Shown in pieces: positions 13,570-31,000 of a stretch of 32,279 bases of DNA. The stretch covers positions 1 through 32,279 of the forward strand of contig WGNH01000020.1 in NCBI GenBank assembly GCA_016124665.1, in the 5' to 3' direction. Position numbers and translations under genes: made by a program. Origin of the DNA: Alphaproteobacteria bacterium. Lineage in GTDB: Bacteria > Pseudomonadota > Alphaproteobacteria > Caulobacterales > Maricaulaceae. Position 1 is the stretch's first letter, and the number at the start of each line of letters is the position of its first letter. The notes below the pieces were generated by a model. It had not been told where the DNA came from. It ran no database searches and saw only the letters and a program-made list of their open reading frames with translations.

Positions 13570-13740
13570 CTATACGCGCTCTCGCCTCAAATAGCAGCCA
13601 CCGCACTGAAAATCCGTGCCCGGACACGATTTTTCTTGCCTCCGGCCTGTCCGGGCCAAAAACTTGGCCTGTCGCGGCGCAATTCCAATGGATCGGGCCG
13701 GATACTTTCTGTCTCCTGACGCCACGGAGAAACGGACGCA

Positions 13741-14637
13741 ATGGCACGAAAACCCCGCAGCAAGAAAAGTGAAGCCTTGGAAATCCGCGTCTCCCATGAA
13801 GACAAGCAAGCCTTCATGGACGCGGTTTCAACGCGGGGAACCACCGCCAGCACCGTTCTCAGGGAGGCCATGGACCTGTTTGTCAGGAATGGCCGGATCA
13901 GAAGGAGAAACATCATGATCACCTCAACCCTGATGGCCATATCGGCCGGCGCTCTGGTCCTGCAGGGCAGTCCGGACGGCGAAACGCAGACCCTCACCGG
14001 CATCCCCGAATTCACCGAAATGGATACGGATGGAAACCGTCTTGTTTCGATTGATGAGTTCAGGGCGCATCGCGGCACCGCCCGCGACGCCTTGTCCGGG
14101 GCCAATGGGGCCGGTGCGTTCGGTTCGGCTCTCGGCGTTCTGCTGGCCCGGTACAGTGGTTCCGTTCCGCCCGAGTTCGGGCGGATGGCACGTGAAACGC
14201 CAGAAGAAATCGAGGCCGATTGCTGGGCCGCCATGGATGAAACCTGGCAGCAGAAAACCACGGCTGATCATTTGGCGATGGATGCTGATGATGATGGCTA
14301 TGTCTCCGTCGCAGAATTCAGCGACCGGGCGACAGCGCAGCTTCGCCGGACATTCAACCGGCTCGACAGGGATGCAAGCGGTTCGCTCGACGCCAACGAA
14401 GTCATTCCTGTCGATGAACCGGACGCCGGCGAAGCCGATCCGGCGCCTGCGCGAAACCTGCCCGATCACGTCACCATCTGTTTCGGTGAGGCACCTGTCT
14501 ACGAGACGCCCACGATTTCTGCTGAGCAGATCCAGCGGGGAAGCGAGACGATGATGACTTTCCTCGACCTGGACGGCGACGGAGCTGTCAGCTGGCAGGA
14601 ATACCGCACATCAATGGATGTGAACCTGTCCAGATAG
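13741..14637 (+). CDS. Ribbon-helix-helix-like / membrane segment / EF-hand protein (paralogue A)
   Basis: The 298-residue protein combines three parts. Residues 1-56 are basic and look like a ribbon-helix-helix DNA-binding domain (ALEIRVSHEDKQAFMDAVS, then a second helix). Residues 59-76 are hydrophobic. The rest carries four EF-hand calcium loops at about 95-106, 181-192, 209-220 and 276-287, each with acidic positions 1, 3 and 12. An internal ATG at 13915 (Met59) has AAGGAG 7 nt upstream, whereas the first ATG has only a distant GGAG. Both a full-length membrane protein and a short exported calcium-binding protein are possible. The second and third paralogues are at 14766 and 15722. Confidence 0.75.
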   Translation: MARKPRSKKSEALEIRVSHEDKQAFMDAVSTRGTTASTVLREAMDLFVRNGRIRRRNIMITSTLMAISAGALVLQGSPDGETQTLTGIPEFTEMDTDGNRLVSIDEFRAHRGTARDALSGANGAGAFGSALGVLLARYSGSVPPEFGRMARETPEEIEADCWAAMDETWQQKTTADHLAMDADDDGYVSVAEFSDRATAQLRRTFNRLDRDASGSLDANEVIPVDEPDAGEADPAPARNLPDHVTICFGEAPVYETPTISAEQIQRGSETMMTFLDLDGDGAVSWQEYRTSMDVNLSR

Positions 14638-14643
14638 ACCATG

Positions 14644-14852
14644 TACCGACACGAAAACGCTTGCAGAATTTTCGTGCAGACCAAAAAGTCGGGGTGTCAC
14701 GACGCGATTTGCCTGGATCGCGGACGCGGCACCCCGTTCTTCTGTCTGGCGGATGATATCTGGCGATGGCACGAAAACCCCGAAGCAAACGGTCCGAAAC
14801 CATGGATATCCGTGTCTCTCACGAAGAGAAGCGGGCTTTCATGGAAGCGGTA
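14644..14852 (+). repeat. Direct repeat, copy 1: upstream region and 5' end of paralogue B
   Basis: This block, containing the upstream region and first 29 codons of paralogue B, matches 15601-15808 before paralogue C, mostly with point changes. The segment from TCGGGGTGTCACGACGCGAT to the ATG is almost unchanged. A weaker version of the upstream motif, GTC(A/G)CG(A/G)CGC(A/G)ATT followed by TGGATCG, also precedes paralogue A near 13672, so it may hold a shared promoter or operator. In this copy CGGGGTG and CACCCCG form a widely spaced inverted repeat. Confidence 0.85.
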
Positions 14853-15440
14853 TCGAAAAAGGGGGAAACGGCCAGCGGTGTCATCCGCAAAGCGATGCGC
14901 CGCTATGTGCGGCTCTACTCAGACAGGAGCAAGTCCATGATATATGCCATTCGTTACCCCGTAGCAGCAGCCATCACTCTGTCAATTGCCATGCTTGGAT
15001 GGCAGGCGCTCGATCCTTTCAATTTAAGCGATGCATTGGCTCAGGATATAGATTCAAGAATTACGCTTTCGTTGACCAGCGAGCAGGATGGTGTGCGATC
15101 CCGTCGCGATATGGCCACACAAATTCGCCAGTCATTTGGCGAGCCGGTTTTCCTCCTGGTCTCGGAGTCGCTTGGCCATCCGGTACTGGTGCGGGAAATT
15201 GGCGAAGACTTGGAAAATACGGGATTCGTTTTTCGGATAATTGCTGAGGAATCCGGCACACCTGAACAAATCACATATCGCGTGGAAATACGCCGCACGA
15301 GTCCTGACGGTGCCACGATCGATACACTCGCAACCCCGGTGTTGACTGTAGAGCGCGCTGAAACGGCGAGAATTGAAATCGGCACATATCCAGTTGATAT
15401 GCTTGCGATGGAACTCACACCCGGCCCTGTGGATAATTAG
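14766..15440 (+). CDS. Ribbon-helix-helix-like / membrane segment / exported domain protein (paralogue B)
   Basis: The 224-residue protein has the same N-terminal domain as paralogue A (MARKPRSKRSE, then MDIRVSHEEKRAFMEAV), a hydrophobic stretch at about residues 59-79, and a 130-residue C-terminal domain, rich in predicted strands, that I do not recognise. An internal ATG at 14937 (Met58) has AGGAG 7 nt upstream and starts a signal-peptide-like sequence ending in DALAQ, a possible signal peptidase site. Its first 29 residues are identical to paralogue C, after which the two diverge abruptly. Its stop overlaps a GNAT gene fragment on the other strand. Confidence 0.72.
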   Translation: MARKPRSKRSETMDIRVSHEEKRAFMEAVSKKGETASGVIRKAMRRYVRLYSDRSKSMIYAIRYPVAAAITLSIAMLGWQALDPFNLSDALAQDIDSRITLSLTSEQDGVRSRRDMATQIRQSFGEPVFLLVSESLGHPVLVREIGEDLENTGFVFRIIAEESGTPEQITYRVEIRRTSPDGATIDTLATPVLTVERAETARIEIGTYPVDMLAMELTPGPVDN

Positions 15441-15577
15441 ATATCCAATACCATGTCCAGACTTGTCGCATAGGCGAGCCGGCCCATGCAGAACAGGCGG
15501 GTTGTGCAGCCGGTATAGGTAAAGCCCAGCTTTTCCAGAACACGGCCCGACGCCGGATTGTCCTCGAAATGCCCGGC
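15437..15577 (-). pseudogene. 3' fragment of the GNAT acetyltransferase gene
   Basis: On the minus strand this encodes the last roughly 45 residues of the intact acetyltransferase at 16396-16926, including GFTYTGCTTRLFCMGRLAYA, and ends in its own stop. Bases 15452-15577 match 16411-16536 without gaps and with very few changes. There is no start or catalytic core, so it is a leftover of a tandem duplication rather than a gene. The near identity points to a recent event or to continuing gene conversion. Confidence 0.88.
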
Positions 15578-15600
15578 GCATTGTCAGCGCAGGACACGTG

Positions 15601-15808
15601 TACCGACACGAAAATCCTTGCCTTCTTTCTGCCGGTACCAAAACTCGGGGTGTCACGACGCGATTTGTCTGGATCGCGGACGCGGCACACCGTTCTTCTG
15701 TCTGGCGGATGATATCTGGCAATGGCACGAAAACCCCGAAGCAAACGATCCGAGACCATGGATATCCGTGTCTCCCACGAAGAGAAGCGGGCTTTCATGG
15801 AAGCGGTC
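15601..15808 (+). repeat. Direct repeat, copy 2: upstream region and 5' end of paralogue C
   Basis: This is the second copy of the block at 14644-14852, offset by about 957 bases. It ends inside the N-terminal domain of paralogue C at the codon for Val29; beyond that the two genes no longer match. Together with the duplicated GNAT fragment, offset by 959 bases, it marks a tandem duplication whose central part has since been replaced or has diverged strongly. Confidence 0.85.
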
Positions 15809-16399
15809 AAACGTCGGGGTATTTCTGCCAGCACAATGATCCGCGAAGCTATGGCGCATTTTGCGCAAGCCCAACTGGACTGGAGAGAGCGAATGAAGCG
15901 ACGACTAATTGCTGGCGGAACCGTATTGGCCATTGCCGCTGCATCTGTGGGAACATGGGAGATAATGCGGCGCGGAGATTTTGGCACCGCCCATGCTGAA
16001 GGTGTGACCTCCAGCTTCCAGATGCGGATAGGGGTCGATGACGCGGGCGTTGAGCGGGTGTTTCGCACGAACACGCAAATCGTCATTCTGCCAGGCGAAT
16101 CTAGCATTTTTGAATTCGACCTTCGATCCCCTCAAATGCTGGCGGCTTTGCTCGCAGACGGGACGGTGATTACCGGCGGTCTTCTTTCGGTGGGTGTATC
16201 GCTGGACGAAGTGCCGGAGACCGATGATTTCATGTATTCGGTCAATGTTTCTGTCATCGATCAGGATGGAAATATCCATGCAACGCCCATCAATCCTCGA
16301 ATTGCGACCCGGATAGATGCCGCCGCATCAGTTGAATCGAGATTTGGAACGGATGCAGAAATCATCATCAATCTTATACCATTGTCGGTTGAGCACTAG
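15722..16399 (+). CDS. Ribbon-helix-helix-like / membrane segment / exported domain protein (paralogue C)
   Basis: The 225-residue protein shares its first 29 residues with paralogue B and then diverges. A hydrophobic segment lies at about residues 61-79, followed by GTAHAEG, a possible signal peptidase site, and a 130-residue C-terminal domain with no recognised family and little resemblance to B. An internal ATG at 15893 (Met58, MKRRLIAGGTVLAIAAAS) has GGAG exactly 7 nt upstream and begins a classical signal peptide. Its stop overlaps the stop of the convergent GNAT gene by a few bases. Confidence 0.72.
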   Translation: MARKPRSKRSETMDIRVSHEEKRAFMEAVKRRGISASTMIREAMAHFAQAQLDWRERMKRRLIAGGTVLAIAAASVGTWEIMRRGDFGTAHAEGVTSSFQMRIGVDDAGVERVFRTNTQIVILPGESSIFEFDLRSPQMLAALLADGTVITGGLLSVGVSLDEVPETDDFMYSVNVSVIDQDGNIHATPINPRIATRIDAAASVESRFGTDAEIIINLIPLSVEH

Positions 16400-16926
16400 A
16401 CCTTCAGCGCCATATCCAGACTTGTCGCATAGGCGAGCCGGCCCATGCAGAACAGGCGGGTTGTGCAGCCGGTATAGGTAAAGCCCAGCTTTTCCAGAAC
16501 CCGGCCCGACGCCGGATTGTCCTCGAAATGCCCGGCCGTGATGCGCTGGGGCACGAGATCTGCCGTGGCCGCACGTATCAGTCCGCCGGCCGCTTCCGTG
16601 GCGATGCCTCGCCCTTTTGCATCGGGCCCGACCCAGTAGCCGATCTCCCAGTCTGTCGCGTCAACATTCCGCTTGAACACACCGCTGGCCCCGAGCAAGG
16701 CATTCGAATGCCGGTCCGAGATGGCGTAAACATAATTCGCCTTGCGGCCGGCGCTCGCCCGGACACTCAATATGTAGAGCTCCGCCGCCAGCAGCGGGTA
16801 GGGGTCGGGAATGCGCGCAGTATTGCGTGCGACACTGCCATCAAGGCAATGATGATAGAATGCGGGTGCGTCACTGATCTCCAGTGGGCGCAATATCAGC
16901 CTGTCAGTCTCGATCCGGTCCCTCAT
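16396..16926 (-). CDS. GNAT family N-acetyltransferase (RimJ/RimL-like)
   Basis: This 176-residue acetyltransferase begins MRDRIETDRLILRPLEISDA, the usual opening of RimJ/RimL-type GNAT proteins, and has the acetyl-CoA-binding segment IGYWVGPDAKGRGIATEA followed by NPASGRVLEKLGF. The substrate cannot be told from sequence. ATG at 16926 is preferred to an upstream in-frame start at 16995 because it matches the family N-terminus and has GGAG upstream; the longer form would run through a terminator hairpin. A partial copy of its 3' end lies about 0.96 kb away at 15437-15577. Confidence 0.9.
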   Translation of the reverse strand: MRDRIETDRLILRPLEISDAPAFYHHCLDGSVARNTARIPDPYPLLAAELYILSVRASAGRKANYVYAISDRHSNALLGASGVFKRNVDATDWEIGYWVGPDAKGRGIATEAAGGLIRAATADLVPQRITAGHFEDNPASGRVLEKLGFTYTGCTTRLFCMGRLAYATSLDMALKV

Positions 16927-16948
16927 GGGCGATCTCCGGCGGGGAATG

Positions 16949-16976
16949 AAAAAGGGGAGGCGGAACCCGCCTCCCC
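16949..16976 (-). terminator. Rho-independent terminator after rpmA
   Basis: Read on the minus strand, GGGGAGGCGG pairs with CCGCCTCCCC over a 3-base loop and is followed by a run of five T. It lies about 65 bases after the rpmA stop and just before the start of the GNAT gene, so it separates the ribosomal operon from that gene. Confidence 0.9.
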
Positions 16977-17039
16977 TGAATTCATGTCCAGCCACCGGTT
17001 CCGCCTGTTGGTGAGGCGGTCCGGGTCTGTCCGTCCGCC

Positions 17040-18480: not shown

Positions 18481-20142
18481 TTACCGAAAGCCAAATTTGC
18501 GTTCCTGCTGGTCCCAGTCGAGTGGTATTTCGGAGCGCACGAGGCGTTCTAGACTGAGATCGGCGGGCTGGGTTCCAGCCAGGATCTGCTCCTGGATTCG
18601 CGGTGACAGGAAGGCGAGATTGGCCCTCACGCGAATGAAGGCATCCGATGTCTTTTCAGACTTGGCAATGGTGGCTGCCGACACCCCGGTCTTCATCTGC
18701 GCGATCCATCGATGCGCTTTGGCAAGGGTTGATATCAGGGTCGCGTCGGGGCTCGGCATCATGTTGCCGGCCACGATTCGGGTCTCGACGCCGCGCCGCC
18801 GGGTCGCAAATGGCTTGGTCATGGTCAGGGCCTCCTCGTTGACCTGATCGAGCGGCAGGTTGAATCGCTCTGCCAACGCGGCCTTGTCGAGGAGGATATC
18901 CAGATGCCCTGAGGCGATGGTCACCTTGTCGACCAGTAGGCAAAGCTCCGCGGTCGACAGGCTTGCAAGAGACGCCCCAATATCTGCGGCCTGATCCTGC
19001 GTAGTGCTGGCGGCGTCCTGTAAAAGCGTGAGCCGAGCCCCGGCCGTTGTCAGATGGCTCTTGGTGGCCTGGCCGACGGCCTCTTCAAGGGCCGATGCAG
19101 GCAAACGCCAGCCAGATCCGTGGGCCGTGGCTTCCCTAGACGTCGTCGACACGTAGTAGCGATGAGCCTTTCCGGACTTTCCGCGCGTATGGGTTGGTGT
19201 GAGCCGACTTCCATTCGTGTCGACCACGCGGCCCGACAGGGGTGATCGGGTCCGCCCCGATGCTGACACGGTGCCGCGCGGTTTGCGGCCATTGATAACG
19301 AGCTTGTCCTGGACCCGGTCAAAGAGGTCCGGGTCGATGACCGCCTCGTGCTGGCCGGGATAGACCTTATCTCGGTGACGGACCTTTCCGGCATAGATCG
19401 GGTTGGTGAGGATGAAATGGACCTGGCCGCGCCGCAGCGGTTTGCCGCCATAGGTGGCCCCGCTCTTGAACTGGCGCGGCTTGGACAAAATGCCGGCCTC
19501 ACGCGCCGCATCACATACCGCCGAGAGGCACGGCGTTTCATCATAGGCGGAGAAAAGGAATTCGACCGACTTGGCTTCTGCCGCGTTGATTGTCAGGCGG
19601 CGCTGGTCGTTATTCCCATCGCGGTCGTAGCCCAGGGGGACCATGCCGCCCATCCACATCCCCTTCTTCTTCGAGGCCGTAATCTTGTCGCGAATGCGTT
19701 CAGCCGTGACCTCGCGTTCGAACTGGGCAAAGGACAGCAAGACATTCAGTGTCAGGCGGCCCATGGAGGACGACGTGTTGAAGGCCTGCGTGACCGAGAC
19801 GAAGGAGCAGCCTGCCGCATCGAGTGTCTCGATCAGCTTGGAAAAGTCAGCCAGTGAGCGCGTGAGCCGGTCGATCTTGTAAACGACCACCATGCCGACC
19901 TGTCCGGCCTTGATGTCGCCCAGCAGCGTGGCCAGGGCTGGCCGCTCCAGCGACCCGCCTGAATACCCGCCATCATCATAGGCCTTGGAAACCGCGCGCC
20001 AGCCTTCATGGCGCTGGCTCTGGATATAGGCCTCGCAGGCTTCCCGCTGGGCATCAAGCGAGTTAAACGCCTGGTCGAGGCCCTCTTCGGTCGATTTGCG
20101 CGTATAGATGGCGCACCGGACGAGTTTCGGCGGCGCGCTCAT
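18481..20142 (-). CDS. Large serine recombinase
   Basis: The 553-residue protein starts with the serine recombinase catalytic domain: the nucleophile is the Ser of AIYTRKSTEEG (about residue 17), with YDDGGYSGGSLERPAL, VVYKIDRLTRSLADFSKL and SFVSVTQAFNTSSSMGRL following. The recombinase domain (PLGYDRDG ... ILTNPIYAGKVRHRDKVYPGQH) comes next; no zinc-ribbon cysteines are obvious. Such enzymes integrate and excise mobile DNA without a ligase. ATG at 20142 overlaps the preceding stop as ATGA, so I prefer it to an upstream start. Confidence 0.93.
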   Translation of the reverse strand: MSAPPKLVRCAIYTRKSTEEGLDQAFNSLDAQREACEAYIQSQRHEGWRAVSKAYDDGGYSGGSLERPALATLLGDIKAGQVGMVVVYKIDRLTRSLADFSKLIETLDAAGCSFVSVTQAFNTSSSMGRLTLNVLLSFAQFEREVTAERIRDKITASKKKGMWMGGMVPLGYDRDGNNDQRRLTINAAEAKSVEFLFSAYDETPCLSAVCDAAREAGILSKPRQFKSGATYGGKPLRRGQVHFILTNPIYAGKVRHRDKVYPGQHEAVIDPDLFDRVQDKLVINGRKPRGTVSASGRTRSPLSGRVVDTNGSRLTPTHTRGKSGKAHRYYVSTTSREATAHGSGWRLPASALEEAVGQATKSHLTTAGARLTLLQDAASTTQDQAADIGASLASLSTAELCLLVDKVTIASGHLDILLDKAALAERFNLPLDQVNEEALTMTKPFATRRRGVETRIVAGNMMPSPDATLISTLAKAHRWIAQMKTGVSAATIAKSEKTSDAFIRVRANLAFLSPRIQEQILAGTQPADLSLERLVRSEIPLDWDQQERKFGFR

Positions 20143-20552
20143 GACCGCGGCCCCGCCAGGCCGAAGAAACGCGGGCCCGACCAATGGGCCCCGGTGATGG
20201 CCTTTGCGACCGCGGAGAGGGACCGGAAACTCTGGTCCTTCCAGCGATACCCATCCTCATGAACCTCCACGACATGGCGCACGCCATTCCATTCGCGGAT
20301 AAAGCGTCCGCCGGGTTCCAGGCGCGCTGACCCCTGGCGCGACGTGTCCGATCCGAGCGCGTCCAACTGGCGCTGGAGCTTGGCCGACAGGCCGCCAGAT
20401 GCGCGCGCCTGGATCTCGAAGGCGACGACACGGCGGATTAGCGGCGTGCTGGTGCGCGGTGGCGGTGGCGCGCCTGTCAGCGCGACCCAATGGGCAACAA
20501 GGCCATCACGGCCCATGGCGGCGATTTCTGCGACCGTCGCCGGGCTCGTCAC
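20139..20552 (-). CDS. DUF2924 family protein
   Basis: This 137-residue protein matches DUF2924, a family found beside serine recombinases in alphaproteobacterial mobile elements. The recognisable part is LEPGGRFIREWNGVRHVVEV, then WKDQSFRSLSAVAKAITGAHWSGPRFFGL. It starts at a GTG that overlaps the previous stop (GTGA), and its own stop overlaps the recombinase start. A link to recombination is inferred from this coupling; no biochemical function is known to me. Confidence 0.85.
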   Translation of the reverse strand: MTSPATVAEIAAMGRDGLVAHWVALTGAPPPPRTSTPLIRRVVAFEIQARASGGLSAKLQRQLDALGSDTSRQGSARLEPGGRFIREWNGVRHVVEVHEDGYRWKDQSFRSLSAVAKAITGAHWSGPRFFGLAGPRS

Positions 20553-20800
20553 GACTGACCCTTCTGAAGGACAGACTTGGGCGTGGGCTCAGCGGTGATG
20601 CGATAGGTCGCGGCAATACCAACCCGATTGGCATGCAGGCGATCAAGACCGTATCCCGCCTTGCGAAGCCGGCTGAGTTCAGCGCGGACCGAATGTTCCT
20701 TCCAGTCGGTCAGGGCACAGAGTTTATAGACGCTGGCTCCATGTCTGGAGCGCAGCGCCTTGATGACATTGTCGCGTTTGGAAGATTTGACCTTGGCCAT
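20549..20800 (-). CDS. DUF3489-like small helix-turn-helix protein
   Basis: This is an 83-residue basic protein (MAKVKSSKRDNVIKALRSRH, then GASVYKLCALTDWKEHSVRAELSRLRKAGYGL) resembling DUF3489. The middle looks like a winged helix-turn-helix, so DNA binding is likely. ATG at 20800 fits the family better than the upstream ATG at 20890. It is the first of three coupled genes ending with the recombinase, and could be a recombination directionality factor or a regulator; this is inference. Confidence 0.8.
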   Translation of the reverse strand: MAKVKSSKRDNVIKALRSRHGASVYKLCALTDWKEHSVRAELSRLRKAGYGLDRLHANRVGIAATYRITAEPTPKSVLQKGQS

Positions 20801-20893
20801 GTGGGCCTCCCGGGGCTCTTGCGGTGACCACACTGGCACCGCTACCGGGATGAGCCCGCAAGGCGGGCGCGCCACCACACATGCTCGCAACAG

Positions 20894-21301
20894 CTACGAA
20901 GTCGAGCGCGTTTTGAGCAGTTTTTCGATTTCGTCCTGGGGTAGGCGGAGTTTCCGATAGATCTGCTCCAGGGATTGCCTGATATAATTGTCCCACTCGG
21001 CGTTGGCGTCGTCGATTTGCGGGCCGACCAACAAAAGTGTTCGCATGACATCGAGCAAGGCTGCGCGATTGCCGGTGAGGGCCTTTTTACACAGCGCCAA
21101 ATAGCTGGCTTCCAGCATGCGAAGCGTCTGCTTTCGTCCCGCCTTGTCCCGCGTTTTCACCGGCTCGGAAAGAATCCGGGCACTCTCCTCAATAAGCGCC
21201 GTGGTTTTCGCCTTACGCCCACGCGGATTACCGCTCTGCCCGGGCTTGAACTGGGAGTGCTTCGGGGGATGGCCATAGCCAATTTTGTCAGGTGTAGCCA
21301 T
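20894..21301 (-). CDS. DUF5681 family protein (second)
   Basis: This 135-residue protein has the DUF5681 opening GYGHPPKHSQFKPGQSGNPRGRK, a basic Gly-rich motif common in proteins next to phage-like genes, followed by a helical C-terminus. ATG at 21301 overlaps the preceding DUF5681 gene by 14 bases. The two neighbours share the KxGxSGNPxG motif but little else. Function is unknown. Confidence 0.82.
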   Translation of the reverse strand: MATPDKIGYGHPPKHSQFKPGQSGNPRGRKAKTTALIEESARILSEPVKTRDKAGRKQTLRMLEASYLALCKKALTGNRAALLDVMRTLLLVGPQIDDANAEWDNYIRQSLEQIYRKLRLPQDEIEKLLKTRSTS

Positions 21302-21710
21302 CGCGCTTATCGTCCTCCTTGAGGTGATCGGGGTATTCCATGCCCAGTTTTTCATAGAATTTTGGGCGGTTTCTCCGGTATTCAAACTGAGCCTCAGCGG
21401 CCTGTTGCGCGAAAAGCGAAGGCTGGTCCTTGGTGGCAATCTTTTGGATAGCTGAGACGAGTTTGATGGCCTGCGGGTCGCCCGACACCGACAACTCGCG
21501 CAGTTTAAGGGTCAGGGCTTCGAGCATCGTGACGCGCCGGCCTGAGCGGGCGATTGTAACGCGGCGCGCCAGCACCTTGGTGATCACGGACGAGGGGTTG
21601 TCGATTGTCTTCGGGGCCCCTTTCGGGTTGCCGGACTTACCCTTCTTGAATCGCTTGGATTTTGGCGGCTTCATATAGCCGGATGTGTGGGGGGTGAGGT
21701 CGTCGCTCAT
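21288..21710 (-). CDS. DUF5681 family protein (first)
   Basis: The 140-residue protein carries the same motif (KRFKKGKSGNPKGAPK) as its downstream neighbour and then a helical region ending in a Glu/Arg-rich tail (PSLFAQQAAEAQFEYRRNRP). Its start overlaps the stop of the methyltransferase gene by 4 bases. DUF5681 proteins are often found near phage packaging or methylase genes; no activity is assigned. Confidence 0.83.
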   Translation of the reverse strand: MSDDLTPHTSGYMKPPKSKRFKKGKSGNPKGAPKTIDNPSSVITKVLARRVTIARSGRRVTMLEALTLKLRELSVSGDPQAIKLVSAIQKIATKDQPSLFAQQAAEAQFEYRRNRPKFYEKLGMEYPDHLKEDDKRDGYT

Positions 21711-23074
21711 GCCGCTGCCCCCTTGGCCGCATTGTCGCCGCGGCGATCTGCGGCGACGTCCTCAAAGACCTGTCCGGTCGCTTCCAGCTTCGCATCAAGG
21801 CCGCAGGTATTAAGCGCGCGCCGGATGATGACATCGCAATAGGCCGGATCGATCTCGACCAGCCGGGCATGCCGCCGCGTCCGTTCAGCCGCGATGAGTG
21901 TTGACCCCGACCCGCCAAAGACATCCAGGACAATCTCACCGCGTTTCGTAACGTCCTTGATGACATCGGCTATAAGGGCGACCGGCTTGACGGTCGGGTG
22001 GAGCGCCAGGTCTTTCTGGCCGCGTCCAAACGCATTGACGCCCGGATAGGTCCACACATTGCTGCGATACCGGCCGGTATCGCCCAGCCCAAACGTATTG
22101 GTGTGGGCCGCTTTGCCTTTTTTGAAGACGAAGACCAACTCGTGCTGGGAGCGATAAAAGCTGCCCATCCCGGCATTGGTCTTGGCCCAGACGACCAAAT
22201 TCTTAAGCTCGGAATAGACCTGCCGGCCTGCGCTCAGCAGCTCGCCCACGTGGCGCCAGTCCATGCACACGAAATGAATGGACCCGTCCTTGGCATGATT
22301 GGCAGCCAGGGACAACGTCGTCTCGAGAAAGGCGGTGAACTGGTCTGGCGACATCTCGCCGGCCCCCATCGCGAACTCGCGGTGCTTGATCTTGCCGGAT
22401 CCGCAGACGTGCTTGTCGATCGGGACATTGTAGGGCGGGTCGGTAAAGACCATGTCGGCTTGGGTCTTGCCCATAAGCGCGGCCAGCACCTCGACCTTCA
22501 TGGCGTCGCCGCAGGTCAATCGGTGCTCACCGATCCGCCAGATGTCGCCCGCCTGCGTGACAGCCGGCCCATCATCTGCAGGCGGGATGTCATCATCGCT
22601 GTCCTCGCCGGGATCAGCCGGTGACAGGAGATTGTCGAGCTCAGCGGTCTCGAACCCGGTGATCTCGAGTTCGAAGTCGAGGTCCAGCGCGGCAAGCTCG
22701 CCGAGCTCGACCCGGAGTGCGTCAGTGTCCCAGCCTGCCAGTTCGGCGAGGCGATTGTCGGCAATTACGAGCGCGCGGCGCTCAGCCTCGGAGAGGTGGT
22801 CCAGCCGAACGGTCGGCACATCGCGCATCTTGGAGAGCTTTGCCGCAGCGAGCCGCCCATGTCCGGCGATAATCATATTGTCCGCGCCAACCAGGATCGG
22901 GTTGACGAACCCGAATTGCCGGATGGACGCGGCGATCTGGCAGATCTGCTTGTCAGAATGGGTACGTGCGTTTTGTCCGTAAGGGATGAGATCATCAACC
23001 TTGCGATAGATGATCTTTAGCCGGAGCGTGTCCGGCAATGTCGGCGCTGTCGCCGCGGGCTTCTTTCCAGGCAT
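21707..23074 (-). CDS. ParB-domain DNA methyltransferase (N4/N6, beta class)
   Basis: The 455-residue protein joins a ParB/Srx-like N-terminal domain (DLIPYGQNARTHSDKQI, then IIAGHGRLAAAKL, about residues 27-105) to a SAM-dependent methylase. Catalytic motif IV is TDPPYNV and the SAM-binding motif I is VFGGSGSTL; motif IV precedes motif I, which places it in the beta class of N4-cytosine/N6-adenine methylases. No restriction gene is adjacent, so it is an orphan methylase of a mobile element. ATG at 23074 has AGGAGG six bases upstream, better than TTG at 23077. A GC-rich hairpin without a T-run lies upstream at 23127-23143. Confidence 0.92.
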   Translation of the reverse strand: MPGKKPAATAPTLPDTLRLKIIYRKVDDLIPYGQNARTHSDKQICQIAASIRQFGFVNPILVGADNMIIAGHGRLAAAKLSKMRDVPTVRLDHLSEAERRALVIADNRLAELAGWDTDALRVELGELAALDLDFELEITGFETAELDNLLSPADPGEDSDDDIPPADDGPAVTQAGDIWRIGEHRLTCGDAMKVEVLAALMGKTQADMVFTDPPYNVPIDKHVCGSGKIKHREFAMGAGEMSPDQFTAFLETTLSLAANHAKDGSIHFVCMDWRHVGELLSAGRQVYSELKNLVVWAKTNAGMGSFYRSQHELVFVFKKGKAAHTNTFGLGDTGRYRSNVWTYPGVNAFGRGQKDLALHPTVKPVALIADVIKDVTKRGEIVLDVFGGSGSTLIAAERTRRHARLVEIDPAYCDVIIRRALNTCGLDAKLEATGQVFEDVAADRRGDNAAKGAAA

Positions 23075-23274
23075 CAATTACCTCCTTTGCCGAGCGCAAG
23101 CGACCGAAGCCGCACACGCAAGCTACCCCGCCAAAGCGGCGGGCTTGATGGGTGGGAATTGATGACAATTGATAACTGCGACTCACCACGAGTCGCCCCG
23201 CGAAGACGCTACACGAATCGCCCGTCCGGTCAAATGTTTGTGTTACTTCAGTGTGCCATTTCAATCGGTTGCGT

Positions 23275-24371: not shown

Positions 24372-24612
24372 TGACGTGACCCCCTGATTTTCCTCCACAA
24401 GCGATTAGAGTCTGGCCTGAAGGAAGGACAGACGATGAAGCGCAAGAGATTTTCGGAAGAGCAGATCATTGGGGTGCTGAAGGAGGCGGAGGCGGGTGCG
24501 AAGACCGCTGATCTGGCCCGGCGGCACGGGGTGTCGGAAGCGACGATCTACAACTGGAAGGCCAAGTATGGCGGGCTGGAGGTATCCGAGGCCCGGCGGC
24601 TGCGGGATCTTG
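24372..24612 (+). mobile_element. Truncated left end of an IS3-family (IS407-like) element
   Basis: The element begins TGACGTGACCCCCTGATTTT, a typical left terminus of this IS group, contains the first 59 codons of its orfA and stops at 24612, where the first intact CRISPR repeat begins. The rest of orfA, all of orfB and the right inverted repeat are missing, so it cannot move by itself. It sits within the former first repeat of the array. Confidence 0.85.
24435..24612 (+). pseudogene. IS3-family transposase orfA, truncated
   Basis: The reading frame MKRKRFSEEQIIGVLKEAEA, then TADLARRHGVSEATIYNWKAKYGG, is the helix-turn-helix part of orfA, which binds the IS ends. It breaks after EARRLRDL, where intact copies continue with a leucine zipper. 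The frame runs on into the CRISPR repeats as an artificial fusion until a stop at 24780; those extra residues (CGWTSISKRLN units) are repeat sequence and not transposase. Confidence 0.9.
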
Positions 24613-26754
24613 GTTGCGGCTGGACCTCGATCTCTAAACGGCTAAACTCTTCGCGGCACCGGCCTTCGCCTTGCCCTTGTTGCGGCTGGACCTCGATCTC
24701 TAAACGGCTAAACTTGGTGCGCCGCATTCCCCGCAACACTGTTCGTTGCGGCTGGACCTCGATCTCTAAACGGCTAAACTGATGAAGTCCAGCTTGGCAC
24801 CATTGTTGCCGTTGCGGCTGGACCTCGATCTCTAAACGGCTAAACTATGCTTCCACCACGTCCAGTCGCCCGCATAGTTGCGGCTGGACCTCGATCTCTA
24901 AACGGCTAAACTATCGCGGGAGTCCTTTCTAGGGTTAAGCCGGTTGCGGCTGGACCTCGATCTCTAAACGGCTAAACTTCTGCATCGTGTTGCTATCCCG
25001 TCCGGGTTGTTGCGGCTGGACCTCGATCTCTAAACGGCTAAACTAATCGACGCTGACACAAGCACGTTCCGTCAGTTGCGGCTGGACCTCGATCTCTAAA
25101 CGGCTAAACTGCCGCGCCTGATTGAACCGCTCGGTGACAAGTTGCGGCTGGACCTCGATCTCTAAACGGCTAAACTATGCAGATTGTCGATGTGTGGAGC
25201 AATCAGTTGCGGCTGGACCTCGATCTCTAAACGGCTAAACTCGGCGACATGGAAGTTGCGCACGTCTATAAGTTGCGGCTGGACCTCGATCTCTAAACGG
25301 CTAAACTATACGTCTGCAGGTGCGAAAGTGCTCGGCAGTTGCGGCTGGACCTCGATCTCTAAACGGCTAAACTCCGTGGCTGGATGCTCCCGCAAGGATA
25401 CCGGTTGCGGCTGGACCTCGATCTCTAAACGGCTAAACTCCAGCGATGCAGCGGCGCGCGTCTCCGCTGTTGCGGCTGGACCTCGATCTCTAAACGGCTA
25501 AACTCGTTGGCTTTCGACGTTGATACAATGAGTGGTTGCGGCTGGACCTCGATCTCTAAACGGCTAAACTGGTTGCCATTATTGACACGACCGTATCAGG
25601 GTTGCGGCTGGACCTCGATCTCTAAACGGCTAAACTCGGGCCGAATGTCTTGCGCCGCACCGATCTGTTGCGGCTGGACCTCGATCTCTAAACGGCTAAA
25701 CTAAGCGCGGCCTGCAATGGAGCTCTCAATTGTTGCGGCTGGACCTCGATCTCTAAACGGCTAAACTTTTGGTCATTTCAAGCGAAACGAAAAGCGTTGC
25801 GGCTGGACCTCGATCTCTAAACGGCTAAACTTCGATCGGCGCGGTCTATCGTCAATACGATGTTGCGGCTGGACCTCGATCTCTAAACGGCTAAACTGCA
25901 AAACCGGAGGCCGAAGATGCGGACGCCGTTGCGGCTGGACCTCGATCTCTAAACGGCTAAACTAGGCCCTCGACGGTGACATGATCGCCCATGTGTTGCG
26001 GCTGGACCTCGATCTCTAAACGGCTAAACTCATCTGACTGGCCGGCCCGTCTGAACCGGTGTTGCGGCTGGACCTCGATCTCTAAACGGCTAAACTCGTG
26101 GTTTTGCGTTCAGCGGTGTGCCGGCCGTTGCGGCTGGACCTCGATCTCTAAACGGCTAAACTCAAGCCGAGTGACGGTCACCAGAACATTGAGTTGCGGC
26201 TGGACCTCGATCTCTAAACGGCTAAACTTCTGGTCCCCCAGATAGACCCGCATCAGAGTTGCGGCTGGACCTCGATCTCTAAACGGCTAAACTTTCGCCC
26301 TGCAGGGCGATGATGTCGTCCTTGTTGCGGCTGGACCTCGATCTCTAAACGGCTAAACTCATAGACGACCACGCCGGCCGCCGTGATGCGTTGCGGCTGG
26401 ACCTCGATCTCTAAACGGCTAAACTGCTCATGTCTCATCCCCGTCGCTGCCGCTGGTTGCGGCTGGACCTCGATCTCTAAACGGCTAAACTAAATGGCGA
26501 TCGCGGCTATATCGGCTTTGCGTTGCGGCTGGACCTCGATCTCTAAACGGCTAAACTCAGACCGCGCGGCGAACGCCGCCTCGCCCTGTTGCGGCTGGAC
26601 CTCGATCTCTAAACGGCTAAACTAGAAGTAGATGGAACTGCGAGAGAAGATAGTTGCGGCTGGACCTCGATCTCTAAACGGCTAAACTGTGTTGTCGTCA
26701 TCATATGTGGTCACCGAGGTTGCGGCTGGACCTCGATCTCTAAACGGCTAAACT
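24613..26754 (+). CRISPR. Type II-C CRISPR array: 33 repeats, 32 spacers
   Basis: The 36-bp repeat begins GTTGCGGCTGGACCTCGATC and ends CTCTAAACGGCTAAACT. I found 33 copies, all identical by eye, from 24613 to 26719 (start of the last). Of the 32 spacers most are 30 bases; some are 28, 29 or 31. Plus-strand transcription is supported by the tracrRNA anti-repeat, by the terminator at 26770 and by repeat orientation. The repeat end TAAACT, with TGGACC 16 bases upstream, resembles a promoter, as in some type II-C arrays. Hydrophobic or repeat-like reading frames inside it are not genes. Confidence 0.98.
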
Positions 26755-26769
26755 CGATCCCTGATCAAG

Positions 26770-26795
26770 CCCCTCAAATCGAGGGGTTTTTTCTT
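26770..26795 (+). terminator. Terminator of the CRISPR transcript
   Basis: CCCCTC (26770-26775) pairs with GAGGGG (26781-26786) across the loop AAATC and is followed by TTTTTTCTTT. It lies 15 bases after the last repeat and has a T-run only in the plus direction, so it ends the array transcript before it reaches the convergent cas2. Confidence 0.9.
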
Positions 26796-26827
26796 TATCC
26801 GGACCGGAAATGTTCCGCGCGAATTCG

Positions 26828-27169
26828 CTAGAACAGCGCGAGCTGATCTGGATTTTTGGCAGGGCGTTCGCCTTTTCTTCCGGTAAAGATTCGCGCATTT
26901 CCATACTGTTTGTCCGTCAGGGTCACGATATGGACCTTGCCCTTTTTGGGCAGGGAGTCCCGGATTCGTCCGATATGGGCTTCAGCGGTTTCCTTGCTCT
27001 CCGCGAAGCGGAGATAGACAGAAAACTGGGCCATCTCGAACCCCTGATCAAGCAGGAATTTGCGGAATTTTGTGGCCGCCTTGCGTTCGCCGGGCGTTCC
27101 CACAGGCAGATCAAACATCACATAAAGCCACATCATCCTGTATCCGCTAAGAGCTGGCCGCTTTTCCAT
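26828..27169 (-). CDS. cas2: CRISPR-associated endoribonuclease/adaptation protein Cas2
   Basis: This 113-residue protein has the Cas2 ferredoxin-like core (MMWLYVMFDLPVGTPGERK, then FLLDQGFEMAQFSVYLRF, then KVHIVTLTDKQYGNARIF); the conserved Asp is Asp20 in FDLP. With Cas1 it forms the integrase complex that inserts new spacers. ATG at 27169 lies directly after the cas1 stop and has GGAAG six bases upstream; starting at the two later ATG codons (about 27136) would give 102 residues. It ends 74 bases from the array, with which it converges. Confidence 0.95.
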   Translation of the reverse strand: MEKRPALSGYRMMWLYVMFDLPVGTPGERKAATKFRKFLLDQGFEMAQFSVYLRFAESKETAEAHIGRIRDSLPKKGKVHIVTLTDKQYGNARIFTGRKGERPAKNPDQLALF

Positions 27170-27170
27170 T

Positions 27171-28070
27171 TCAGGCTTCCAGCGGCAATATCCGCCGGGG
27201 CAGCTCCAGCCTTGTTGCCTTTCCGGCAAAACAATTGGCCAGAGACACGGCGACGCGTTGCAGGCAGACCCCGACCGGGCTGACGCCCTGTGCCGTGCTC
27301 ATATCAGTAATGAGAATGCGCGCCAGACCGGCCTTGGTTTCCTTGTTCACCTCGTCTGCGCCTTCGCTGACCAGATCATGGATCAGAAGGTCGGCAAGTG
27401 GCCGGAAGGGCTCCATCAGATCATCTGCCAGCGCAAAAGCATTGCCCCGCTGACGGTGGGCGAGACCAAAGCTGGGGTGCAGGCCGGCCGCCATGATGGC
27501 GCGCGCCGTTCCAGCCCGCAAAATGGTGTAGGTGTAATTCAGCATGGCATTGATACCGTGCGATGACCGGTCGCGGCGGAAATCCTTGCCGAACAAGAGC
27601 GGCCAGTAGCGGCGCGCCGCCTGTGCCTCGACATTGTCGGGATCGCCGGACCGGACCTTACGCGAGAGCAGATGAAAGCCTTGATGCGGGGCCTTGACAG
27701 ATTCCAGCGTTGCGCCCTGACTTTCGATCTTGGCGGAGACGATTTGCGCCCAGAGGCGCTTTTTCAGCGGTTTTCCCGCCGCGGCCTGGTCGGCCATCCG
27801 GCCCGCTTGTTCATAATGCCCCTCCGCACTCCACAGAAAGGCGGCGGGACGATGATTGGCTGCACAGAAGACGACCGGCGCACAGCGCTCGGCAAGCGCA
27901 ACCAGCAGATTATTGGAATATGTGATGCCATGAGCCGAAGCGATCACGGCGGTCACATCATCCAGCGGAATGCGGCCGATCTCGACACCATCGTCACTGA
28001 CGGTCAGGAAACCGCGCGATTTTGCCAGATGCCGTCCGTCCTCGGCGATCTCGACAATGCGGCCGGTCAT
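27171..28070 (-). CDS. cas1: CRISPR-associated integrase Cas1 (type II)
   Basis: The 299-residue protein has the beta-rich N-terminal domain (DDVTAVIASAHGITYSNNLLVALAERCAPVVFC) and the all-helical C-terminal catalytic domain. The metal ligands are visible as Glu148 (NVEAQAARRYW), His205 (GLAHRQ) and Asp217 with Glu220 (DDLMEPFRP). Its ATG shares one base with the cas9 stop (TGATG), so the two should be translated together. It inserts new spacers with Cas2. Confidence 0.97.
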   Translation of the reverse strand: MTGRIVEIAEDGRHLAKSRGFLTVSDDGVEIGRIPLDDVTAVIASAHGITYSNNLLVALAERCAPVVFCAANHRPAAFLWSAEGHYEQAGRMADQAAAGKPLKKRLWAQIVSAKIESQGATLESVKAPHQGFHLLSRKVRSGDPDNVEAQAARRYWPLLFGKDFRRDRSSHGINAMLNYTYTILRAGTARAIMAAGLHPSFGLAHRQRGNAFALADDLMEPFRPLADLLIHDLVSEGADEVNKETKAGLARILITDMSTAQGVSPVGVCLQRVAVSLANCFAGKATRLELPRRILPLEA

Positions 28071-31000
28071 CAGAAGTCTCTTGCCGGCAGGACCCGGCCG
28101 ATCGGATCGACGCGTACGCGGCGTCCTTCCGCTGCTTTTAACTTTGAGTATGCAGCTTGCTGATATCTGGCTTTGTCTGATTTTCCCGCTGCTAAATGTG
28201 GAACAAATTCAATCCGGTTGTTTGTCGGGTCCAGCTTCTTCACCACGTACAGCTGTTTAGACTCCTCAAATTTGGCTTCAAACATATCTGCCTTATGTAA
28301 ACGCATCACGAGACGGGCGTCGCTATGTTCGCTCCTCCATTTGGGGCTGAATGACGGCTTGTTCGCGTCAAATACACTTACGCCGCAACCACGCCATTTG
28401 CCGTCCGGAGTTTCGAAAATCTCGATTCTATGATTTTCGTCGTTGGCGTAAGTTTTCGTATAATCCTGACCATGCGAAATGGTTTTGATGGTTTCTGTTT
28501 TTCTGGTTTCCAACACTCGCACGCGGCGAATGCCCCGCTTGCGCCCGAATTCGGCCAGCACCTCGTTCAGCTTTACGCCATCGCGTTTGGCCTCATAGGC
28601 GAGGGCTTGCAATTCCTCCCGAAGGGCCGCGTCGCGCACCCGTCCGATTTCGCCTTCGGATAGCGTTTCAACGGCCTTCCGTATGACTAGATTGTAGCGC
28701 TTGCCATCAATCTCCTCGTCTACATTGCCATAGGCGGTTGCCTTATGCAGCCTACCGGATGTGACATGCACATTGCCCTGCGCGCCCGGTGGAATGCCAT
28801 GATCGGGCTTGTGACTGACGATCAGGGTTTCCAGTCGTTCCCGAAGCATTTCGCGATAATTCTCGAACGGTTCCGGAAAGCTGTCCTTGGGGAAAAGCCG
28901 GTCGATTTCCAGATTTTCTGCCTTCCCGGACGCTTTAGCCAATCTGTTCAGCAAACCACGGTCCGTGCAGGCGACGACGAATGCATCAATAGCGTGGTGG
29001 CGGTGATCGTCGCGGTTCTTCGCCTGTTCTGCCTCTTCTTCACCGATCCTGTTGTGGTCGGCAAAAAGCGAGTTCAGCGCCCATTTATGCCGTAACATGG
29101 AGGTCAGGCGGCCCGGCGTTGCCCAGACCTGTTTCGAGACCAGTTCCAGATAGCGCCGCGCCATGCGCGCCATGTGCTGGGTATCGGTGAGTTGCCGGGC
29201 CAGAAAGCCGCCATCTTCGGCAAAGCGCTCCATGGCTCCGGGTTGAAAGCGCCAGGCCTTTTTCGGGAAAAGCCTTTCGGCGCGTTCGACGATTTCCTGC
29301 AAATCTCCGCCGGACCAGACTTCGGCAGGGGCCCGGTTGCGCTTGATGCGGTTCGAAGCCGACGTGCACAAAACCTTGTTCATGAAGCCGTCGTCGAGCG
29401 TTTTTGAATGGGGAAGAATGTGATCGATATCGACCGATCCATCAAACAGCCGCGCAACGTTCAAGGGGTCACCGGAATAGACACAGACCTTTTCGTCGGC
29501 CGGCAATTCCTCGAACAGGCGCATTCGGAGTCTTGAATCAAACGTGTCGGCCACGCCGAGCTTCGCCAGCTCTGTCCGGATGTTTTCATTCCGCTTCTGG
29601 TTCTTGCTGCTCTCGCGCTGGATATCGTCCTTGCGCTTCTTGTTCAGCTTCAGATCGCGGGCCAGTTCGATGACGATTTCATCCATATCGCCATATTCAT
29701 CGATCAGGGCATTGACGACCTTGCGAAGCTGGTTGAGCCCGATATGAACGGTGGGGTTCGGCACCCGGCCAATGGCGTCCTGACTGCCGTCCGGCGCGCC
29801 GGACTTGGCGATGACATCCCCGGCCATGGCCTCGCCATAATAGGGCAGGCGTTTCGCTTCGCCGCTGCCGCGTCTGTCGGAATGATGCAGGCCGAGCTCC
29901 CCGACGGCCTCGTCATAGGTCAACGGCCGGGCATAGACCTCGCCCGTGTCGGGATCGAAAGCGTCTTCCTTGCTCCCGGTTTCCATGACCCTGACCAGAT
30001 CGGTAAGGATGCCCCGGCCAAAGCGGCCATGACCCTGGGGCAGGCGCGCTTTAGACACCGCTTCGGCGGTGTCCTCATCCATGTCGAAAGTTTTTACCAG
30101 CCACGCTTTCAGCTCATCTGGATTTTCGGTTGCCAGAAGCCGCTCGACAATCTCGATCTGCCTGTCCCGGGCCAATGTGCGCCATGTCTTCCCGAACAGT
30201 TTGGCAGCCCCCAGTTTCACGGCGGTCTGATCGGGATCGAACCCCTTGCGCCCGAATTGCTCATAATTGAAGCGGACATCGTCCGGCAGTTTCAGTGCAC
30301 CCCGCAATTTCTCGAAGGTGCAGGCAGATGGCCCTTTGCTCATCAGTATATTGGCGAGCGCATCCCGTTCCTGGAGTGTCAGAAAGCGGGCTTGTCCGCC
30401 TGCGCGGGAAATACGCAGCTGACACAGATCCTGTAAAATGCGGAAGCGCTGGAACAGGGGATGTGCCTTGGGGGCGCGTTCGCCGAAATCGATTTCATTG
30501 AGGCCGTCATAAGATGGGCGTTTGTCGATGTCAGGCTTCAGTGAACAGCGGCCGACATCGGGCTTTTTCAAAGGGCGTTGCTCTATGATGATGCGTTTTA
30601 GGCGCGCCAGCAATGCACCGGTCAGTTCCGGGTGATGATGCGATTGCCGTTTCCAGATGGCGTCCAGCTCGCCTTCCACCATCTGGCGCTCGGGATAGAA
30701 ATCATAGGTGTTCTTCGTGCCCTCCGTGGCGGGCCGGAAACGGACCTGTTTCGGCTCGGCATAGCCAGTCGCGGTTGCCAGTCGCTTTCCGTTGCGGTCA
30801 CGCCCGTGCCGCCGGGCCAGCAATTCGCCCAGCGTCCGCGCATTCTCCTTTTCCATCGCCTCGTGCAGCGCCTTCATGCCGGTCTTCATCGCGCCATCTT
30901 CCTTGTCGTCCCCGTCTGCCAGCCGGTTCGACTTGAAACCACGTCGCTGGTTGAGGTGGAAAATGGCGCGGCCGATTTCGTGAAGGGGCAGTGTTTCATC

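Follow-up and report, generated by a model that had tools for sequence, protein, structure and literature searches.

This report concerns three adjacent genes, here called A, B and C, in a stretch of DNA of 32,279 nucleotides (nt) that is referred to as the window: positions 1 to 32,279 of contig WGNH01000020.1 (C46 in our numbering) from assembly GCA_016124665.1, the 2.7 Mb genome of an alphaproteobacterium of the Maricaulaceae. The genes form a tandem trio between obg and a GNAT gene, and each joins about 50 residues of ribbon-helix-helix (RHH) type through a short linker to a hydrophobic segment and an exported domain. An earlier note on the window had proposed that an in-frame internal start gives each gene two products, one binding DNA at the membrane and the other exported. 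Its coordinates, reading frames and internal ATGs (13915, 14937 and 15893) proved correct, as did the GGAG-type ribosome-binding site 7 nt before each of them. With a selected internal start, an RHH profile match and an upstream operator now in its support, the proposal is a probable one: each gene would encode a membrane-tethered RHH regulator and, separately, a free exported domain led by a signal peptide, and the RHH domain would bind the palindrome TGTCnnGACA. The genes, their predicted short forms and the internal ribosome-binding sites are as follows.

13741..14637, + strand: gene A, full-length (298 amino acids, aa), RHH, hydrophobic segment and EF-hand exported domain (EF-hand_1 match at 4e-15)
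13902..13907, + strand: internal ribosome-binding site of A, AAGGAG, ending 7 nt before ATG 13915
13915..14637, + strand: predicted short form of A from internal ATG 13915, with AAGGAG 7 nt upstream and a weak signal peptide
14766..15440, + strand: gene B, full-length (224 aa), RHH, hydrophobic segment and exported domain
14925..14929, + strand: internal ribosome-binding site of B, AGGAG, ending 7 nt before ATG 14937
14937..15440, + strand: predicted short form of B from internal ATG 14937, with a signal peptide and ALA/QD site
15722..16399, + strand: gene C, full-length (225 aa), RHH, hydrophobic segment and beta-type exported domain
15882..15885, + strand: internal ribosome-binding site of C, GGAG, ending 7 nt before ATG 15893
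15893..16399, + strand: predicted short form of C from internal ATG 15893, with N-terminus MKRRLIAGG and AHA/EG site

The family was delimited with a profile (A3) built from the RHH part alone, so that its members were not selected for an internal start. Searches with it placed members in 75 of the 137 family genomes (E 1e-4), 104 of the 299 order genomes (E 1e-8) and 3 of the 385 class genomes (E 1e-12), two of those three lying within the order; weaker matches include generic RHH proteins. From this distribution we infer that the RHH-membrane family is largely confined to the Caulobacterales in the broad sense. Named loci were found with a closer 8-row alignment, of whose 130 loci the best 80 were kept; these come from Maricaulis, Parvularcula, Henriciella, Ponticaulis, Caulobacter, Phenylobacterium, Brevundimonas and others, with two from Kordiimonas/Kordiimonadales. 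Pooling gave 255 members unique by RHH DNA, with a small bias from some loci found by a search whose query extended into the signal segment. In 235 of the 255 a hydrophobic segment follows the RHH part in the same frame, from which a membrane topology is predicted. Groups of genomes are coded below as f1 (Maricaulis-like), f2 (Henriciella-like), f3 (Caulobacter-like) and f5 (Parvularcula-like), besides f4 and f6.

The evidence for the internal start is found in the DNA at the junction between the RHH part and the hydrophobic segment. A Shine-Dalgarno (SD) match, defined as at least 4 nt, precedes 108 of 217 in-frame junction ATGs, compared with 22 of 195 control ATGs in the RHH part, 1 of 91 inside the hydrophobic segment and 30 of 534 after it. 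Among the 108, 94 have an aligned spacing of 4 or 5, a peak that is weaker evidence than it appears because codon phase also draws most of the control matches to the aligned spacings 4 and 7. The simplest alternative would be one product only, in which the junction Met and the purine-rich codons are by-products of a basic linker flanking the membrane, the Arg, Lys and Glu codons of such a linker being SD-like. Junction linkers are often basic, and when synonymous codons are resampled with the protein kept (300 draws), about 18-20% of members still acquire an SD match. The real sequences go well beyond this: the 177-member set contains 95 SD-bearing sites where the resampled mean is 35.4 and the maximum 47, and 117 representatives with less than 70% RHH identity contain 62, which is above all 300 resamplings (mean 21.0, maximum 30). 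Synonymous resampling falls short of the observed count, so the internal site appears to be selected in the DNA. Rare AGA/AGG codons for Arg are enriched, and out-of-frame junction ATGs carry an SD match in only 5 of 84 cases, all of which makes the one-product explanation very improbable.

Codon usage around the site points in the same direction. Just before the best ATG, Arg is written AGA or AGG in 40 of 72 codons (11% elsewhere), Lys is AAG in 41 of 50 (50% elsewhere) and Glu is GAG in 53 of 67 (47% elsewhere), ratios that are inflated because the best ATG was picked by its SD match; the resampling is not affected by this choice. Across 64 related pairs, codon -4 is identical wherever its residue is conserved (44 of 44), and for codons -5 to -3 the count is 111 of 130, where 80.8 would be expected; the test is partly circular, as an SD match was the condition for choosing either row of a pair. 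Collectively, these comparisons indicate selection on the nucleotides of the internal start throughout the family.

A purine-rich motif directly before a hydrophobic segment could also serve to pause elongating ribosomes for targeting of the membrane segment, with no start site involved. In members with a junction ATG but no SD match, SD cores are indeed slightly more frequent than after resampling (17 of 52, mean 11.0, maximum 16). The excess is missing in members without a junction ATG (5 of 81, resampled mean 5.4), whereas members with the internal site exceed their resampled counts (54 of 102, mean 28.1, maximum 37), which speaks against a pausing role. Start-codon exchange provides a further comparison. 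From 133 members without an internal site, 52 with less than 45% identity to the nearest member with a site were dropped, and the codon at the aligned place in the remaining 81 is a gap in 37, ATG in 7, GTG in 4, TTG in 2 and something else in 31. Only the 15 pairs with at least 60% identity are informative, and here the site-less member has ATG in 6, GTG in 2 (L124, L127) and TTG in 1 (L060); these last three ATG-less relatives carry their GTG or TTG with an SD of 5-6 nt. The pausing explanation is thus exceedingly unlikely. Both the amino-acid-composition and the pausing explanations were tested, by resampling and by SD-core counts for each ATG class, and both were judged unlikely.

The upstream start has a ribosome-binding site of its own in much of the family. 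The full-length start was assigned for 172 of 177 members, with an SD match in 101 of the 172; for A, the sequence GGAG stands at 13726-13729, 11 nt from the upstream ATG. The description of the upstream ATGs as having poor ribosome sites therefore does not extend to the family, and for A the site is not very poor. As for the short forms, which had been said to begin like signal peptides, the likeness is better for B and C with their ALA/QD and AHA/EG sites and weakest for A. Family-wide, the n-region of the short forms has a median net charge of +2, and a small-x-A site is present in 79 of the 90 that have the internal site, in 22 of 36 with an ATG but no SD match and also in 28 of 51 without a junction ATG.

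Turning to the N-terminal domain, similarity of profiles places it in the RHH superfamily. Against solved RHH proteins, the A3 family profile matches DinJ (9lew) at 1.1e-5, VapB26 at 0.006, ORF56 at 0.008, RelB at 0.047 and ParG at 0.06. The RHH-type Pfam matches of the single window proteins fall under the curated cut-offs, and no winged-helix Pfam match was found in A, B or C. In the structure model of C, helices span residues 19-32 and from 36 onwards, with a predicted local distance difference test (pLDDT) score of 85-94 over the RHH part in blocks of ten and 70.8 overall; in the model of A the helices span 19-31 and 36-50 with pLDDT 70-87. In both monomer models the two helices are rightly placed and the RHH strand is not formed. 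The RHH-like domain proposed in the earlier note is thus upheld by the family profile, as well as by an upstream operator that varies with the RHH strand. The earlier note had argued from A versus B that this domain is protein-coding; the N-termini of the two share 66% protein identity over 50 residues, a comparison independent of the B/C duplication described below.

RHH proteins generally use short inverted-repeat operators placed in tandem in their own promoters. Alignment of the upstream regions of 229 of the 235 members (six lacked a start or enough sequence) revealed such a palindrome. The sequence TGTCCGGACA is exact in 84 of the 229 upstream 200-nt regions and has one mismatch in 49 more, compared with 0 and 2 in the members' own 3' coding sequence and 0 and 0 in shuffled sequence. 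TGTCnnGACA is exact in 133 of the 229 (76 of 133 representatives), with no occurrence inside any of the 229 genes and one at -400 to -201 among the members with that much sequence. Second sites lie 21-22 base pairs (bp) from the first in 77 of 167 cases, a peak that the shuffled control with its 81 second sites does not have; minor peaks fall at 27, 32, 17 and 52-54 bp. In the window, the operator-like sites are as follows.

13617..13626: first site of A, TGCCCGGACA, a palindrome with one mismatch at a distance of 124 nt from the full-length start downstream
13670..13679: second, weaker site of A, TGTCGCGGCG, read by eye, spacing 53 bp
14642..14651: first site of B, TGTACCGACA, upstream of the gene
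14695..14704: second, weaker site of B, TGTCACGACG, read by eye, spacing 53 bp
15599..15608: first site of C, TGTACCGACA, upstream of the gene and differing from TGTCCGGACA at two positions
15651..15660: second, weaker site of C, TGTCACGACG, read by eye, spacing 52 bp

The centre of the palindrome varies with one residue of the RHH strand. This residue is the first strand residue x of x-L-E-V-R, which we take to correspond to the base-contacting strand residues of Arc and MetJ. It was compared in the 183 of 235 members with a scorable site and strand, using a score that rewards TGT...ACA, a symmetrical site and C or G at the fourth and seventh places but gives no preference to the central pair. 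Where the centre is CATG, the residue is Lys in 36 of 36 members; where it is CCGG, Lys is found in 0 of 102. The rarer centres ACGG and GGGG go with Arg and Leu, respectively, in 3 of 3 members each. Among representatives, 21 of 24 with Lys have an AT centre, compared with 1 of 81 with another residue (Fisher p 7e-18, ignoring kinship). In the two contrasts supported by the tree, the operator follows the residue in 1.8 of 2 on average and in no case moves against it.

The palindrome might instead be the site of another regulator or a promoter element, considering that its position varies between about -40 and -200 and that loose matches are common genome-wide. The extended 15-nt form, however, is nearly specific to the family and the signal-peptidase gene discussed below. 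Exact TGTCCGGACACGAWW has 25 matches in 24 of 200 genomes, against 1 for the reversed control: 17 stand immediately in front of members (the pair in G220 is a single palindrome matched in both orientations), a further 4 in front of a signal-peptidase gene, and the remaining 4 are elsewhere (G045, G229, G084, G252). All 4 matches of TGTCATGACACGAWW stand before members, each of the Lys type. Together with the variation of the operator centre with the RHH strand residue, this makes a foreign regulator or promoter element an unlikely owner of the site.

Several observations weigh against two products per gene and an operator read by the RHH strand. The internal site is absent from whole lineages, being found in 0 of 32 named Caulobacteraceae members and 0 of 18 f3 members, and among the 15 close pairs the site-less member also has ATA (L155), ACG (L129), TCC (L136) or, in 3 cases, a gap. 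The short form of A, having neither a charged n-region nor a clear AxA site, makes a poor signal-peptide case. Cleavage might also act on full-length proteins at this position, thereby blurring the two forms. Split genes, which would have been simple support for two products, were not recognised among 25 short frames inspected. With one mismatch allowed, the palindrome is unspecific, occurring at 204 places in the source genome against 113 for the reversed control; of 11 exact TGTCCGGACA sites in that genome, two precede members, and the other nine, seen in short context only, include one (L310) shortly before an ATG. Finally, the association of residue and operator involves few independent events, with at least 4 changes of Lys and 7 of the CATG centre on the tree, and an independent-contrast test with only 2 supported pairs cannot reach significance. 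Kinship and the small number of independent changes limit what can be concluded about this association.

The lineage distribution of the internal site deserves closer attention, because orthologues lacking it had been named beforehand as evidence against two products. The site is present in 51 of 97 f1 members, 21 of 37 in f2, 12 of 17 in f5, 5 of 7 in f4 and 1 of 1 in f6, as well as in 8 of 13 named Hyphomonadaceae, 4 of 11 otherwise named members and 0 of 2 Kordiimonadales. Of the 50 Caulobacteraceae-type members, 8 have a junction ATG without an SD match, and the exported part of the Caulobacteraceae members is only about 30 residues long. Even in the window's own group, f1, 27 of 97 members have no junction ATG. 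On a tree of 183 rows the internal-site label changes at least 23 times. The evidence named beforehand against two products is thus partly present, but we read the lineage-wise absence as lineage-specific gain or loss and not as a refutation.

Under the two-product reading, whose topology, processing, sensing, direction of regulation and feedback logic we infer, translation from the upstream start would give a full-length protein with a cytoplasmic RHH domain, one hydrophobic segment and an exported domain, in other words a regulator tethered to the inner membrane. Translation from the internal in-frame start, with its own ribosome site, would give the signal-peptide-led exported domain and no DNA-binding domain. 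The RHH domain would bind TGTCnnGACA palindromes, often in tandem, in its own promoter as a means of autoregulation, and in Caulobacteraceae it would also bind the promoter of a convergent signal-peptidase-I paralogue. A T-type RHH domain would prefer TGTCCGGACA and a K-type TGTCATGACA. The exported domain of the tethered form may sense the state of the periplasm, such as calcium in the EF-hand types, and thereby alter dimerisation or release of the RHH domain, while the free exported form may act as an effector or competing decoy whose amount sets the switch.

It is also possible, if doubtful, that the exported protein is what matters, and that the RHH domain is a plain autorepressor fused to it for proportionate synthesis, with no signalling role for the tether. 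Payloads do vary widely under one RHH type and operator, and the operator is mostly the gene's own. Against this, the RHH part and hydrophobic segment share one frame in all but 20 members, and no version with the RHH and exported domains as separate genes was recognised among the 25 short frames inspected, which are generic RHH proteins, frames at contig ends, short membrane forms, a stop-bearing frame (L118) and what look like frameshifts (L091, L096). Moreover, Caulobacteraceae keep the tether with some 30 exported residues and no internal site, so that the tether seems to matter by itself.

The most frequent neighbour of the family is a convergent gene, in 31 of 198 dereplicated loci, which from its sequence by eye we take to be signal-peptidase-I; in G194 the adjacent gene has a match to Pfam PF10502 (1.3e-45). 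Loci with a PSSSMEP-type motif downstream of a member (n=27, from f3, named Caulobacteraceae and a few relatives such as L238, L257 and L278) have an operator upstream of the peptidase paralogue in 27 of 27 cases (22 exact, 4 with one mismatch, 1 with two), and in 25 of 27 the operators are paired 21-22 bp apart. The RHH gene's own upstream region at these loci has an exact site in 6 of 26 and at least 3 mismatches in 18. Caulobacteraceae members have an AxA-like site behind the hydrophobic segment in 49 of 50 cases. At L317, L319, L320 and L321, too, a convergent peptidase paralogue carries this operator in its promoter.

Signal-peptidase genes elsewhere were sampled at 30 loci, one per genome, and 22 of these have no upstream site at 7 of 8 fixed letters, so the peptidase link is shown for Caulobacteraceae-type loci only. 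The sole f3 locus among the 30, L345, is the other peptidase paralogue and has no site, and single imperfect sites precede the signal-peptidase genes of L350, L351, L364, L365 and L374. One Parvularcula-type genus has a TGTCCTGACA-like site at a constant distance upstream of its signal-peptidase gene (exact in L352, one change in L358 and L359). A fourth genome of this genus, L351, has no such site at the constant place, and the sites in the other three may reflect shared descent only.

These loci raise the tentative and rather unlikely idea of a transcription switch gated by signal peptidase, in which a feedback loop would measure protein-export capacity. A signal sequence open to cleavage by signal peptidase I would tether the RHH regulator, and cleavage would remove the exported part and, directly or after further trimming, free or destroy the RHH part. 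The latter would control the tandem TGTCnnGACA before the signal-peptidase gene in Caulobacteraceae or before its own gene in other families. In those other families the internal-start product would be a second peptidase substrate that competes and sets the threshold.

Membrane-tethered transcription factors and genes-within-genes are each already known. ToxR and CadC are membrane-bound one-component regulators with winged-helix domains, and the present family shares with them a predicted cytoplasmic DNA-binding domain, one membrane segment and a periplasmic domain; it differs in having an RHH domain instead of a winged helix and an internal start that would give a soluble exported form. With RHH repressors and antitoxins (Arc/MetJ/CopG; RelB/DinJ; NikA) it shares an RHH domain by profile and tandem inverted repeats in its own promoter. 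Unlike them, it has a hydrophobic segment, an exported domain and a second in-frame start, and no toxin was recognised among its recurrent neighbours (clusters in at least 4 of 198 loci, with flanks of about 1.5-4 kb). As for bacterial genes with dual in-frame starts, PMC11005335 describes ClpB, SsaQ, PagC and OmpX, with a shorter proteoform and a differential location proposed, and two-polypeptide endolysins are reported in PMC9430671. According to PMC11005335, the short forms of PagC, OmpX and SseL are without an export signal, in contrast to the short form here, which has a predicted N-terminal export signal and is without the DNA-binding domain. The literature searched contained no description of the RHH-membrane family by title or abstract start, and no translation, localisation or DNA-binding data for these genes. 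For the operator letters, the matches listed include several works on p53 sites and, by title, none on bacterial regulation.

A tethered regulator and a gene-within-gene thus appear to be combined in one widespread family, in which the second start, the operator and the likely recognition residue can be read from the sequence. If this is true, one mRNA would yield both a tethered regulator and its free exported counterpart, which is a simple design, and operator specificity could be predicted from the residue at a single strand position. The signal-peptidase link would make it testable how bacteria match signal-peptidase supply to export load. In addition, exported EF-hand proteins in Caulobacterales may be incompletely annotated in their starts and domains.

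The source genome contains five RHH-membrane members, namely A, B, C, C32:16805-16966 and C5:4218-4367. Among the 198 dereplicated loci of any kind, the neighbours include GNAT in 9, obg in 6 and a second member in 13. B and C (compared as 14640-15620 and 15590-16600) have in common a 168-nt stretch at 96% identity, comprising upstream DNA and about 29 codons. A further trace of copying lies downstream of B:

15429..15577, - strand: copied 3' end of the GNAT gene (16396-16995), 92% identical to 16388-16536

This copy is apparently a remnant of the B/C tandem duplication. No long DNA match between B and C was found from the 168-nt stretch to the GNAT copy, and a genome of the same genus (G003) has only A and C at the obg-GNAT locus; B looks like a tandem duplicate with an exchanged body. 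Since the N-terminal identity of B and C stems in part from this recent duplication, upstream DNA included, the two are not independent evidence. The exported domain of B has no clear relative in 136 other genomes of the same family, with one marginal match in G125 (E 0.0099), and is probably a beta domain like that of C. Several Maricaulis-like genomes, for example those of L073 and L011 as well as the window, have one to three tandem RHH-membrane genes between obg and GNAT, and the locus is perhaps a hot spot for duplication and payload exchange.

The exported domains of the family vary, with EF-hands in A and, as read from the sequences, TonB-C-like and beta domains elsewhere. The EF-hands of A match lanmodulin (NF053806) at 2e-6 with 27.9 bits against a cut-off of 135 and XopAW (NF041410) at 2.3e-10 with 40.7 bits against a cut-off of 120; A is a member of neither family, and the likeness is confined to the EF-hands. 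The structure model of A matches EF-hand proteins (9 at 1e-3), and that of C has no confident fold match, the best Foldseek E value being 2.5e-3 (secretins) and none reaching 1e-3. Elsewhere in the window, positions 18481-23077 hold a serine-recombinase-like open reading frame (ORF) with DUF5681 (1.2e-14) and ORFs that are presumably DNA-methyltransferase-like, which perhaps make up an integrated element. Positions 24435-31366 hold what appears to be a type II-C CRISPR array with Cas2, Cas1 and a 1098-aa Cas9-like ORF.

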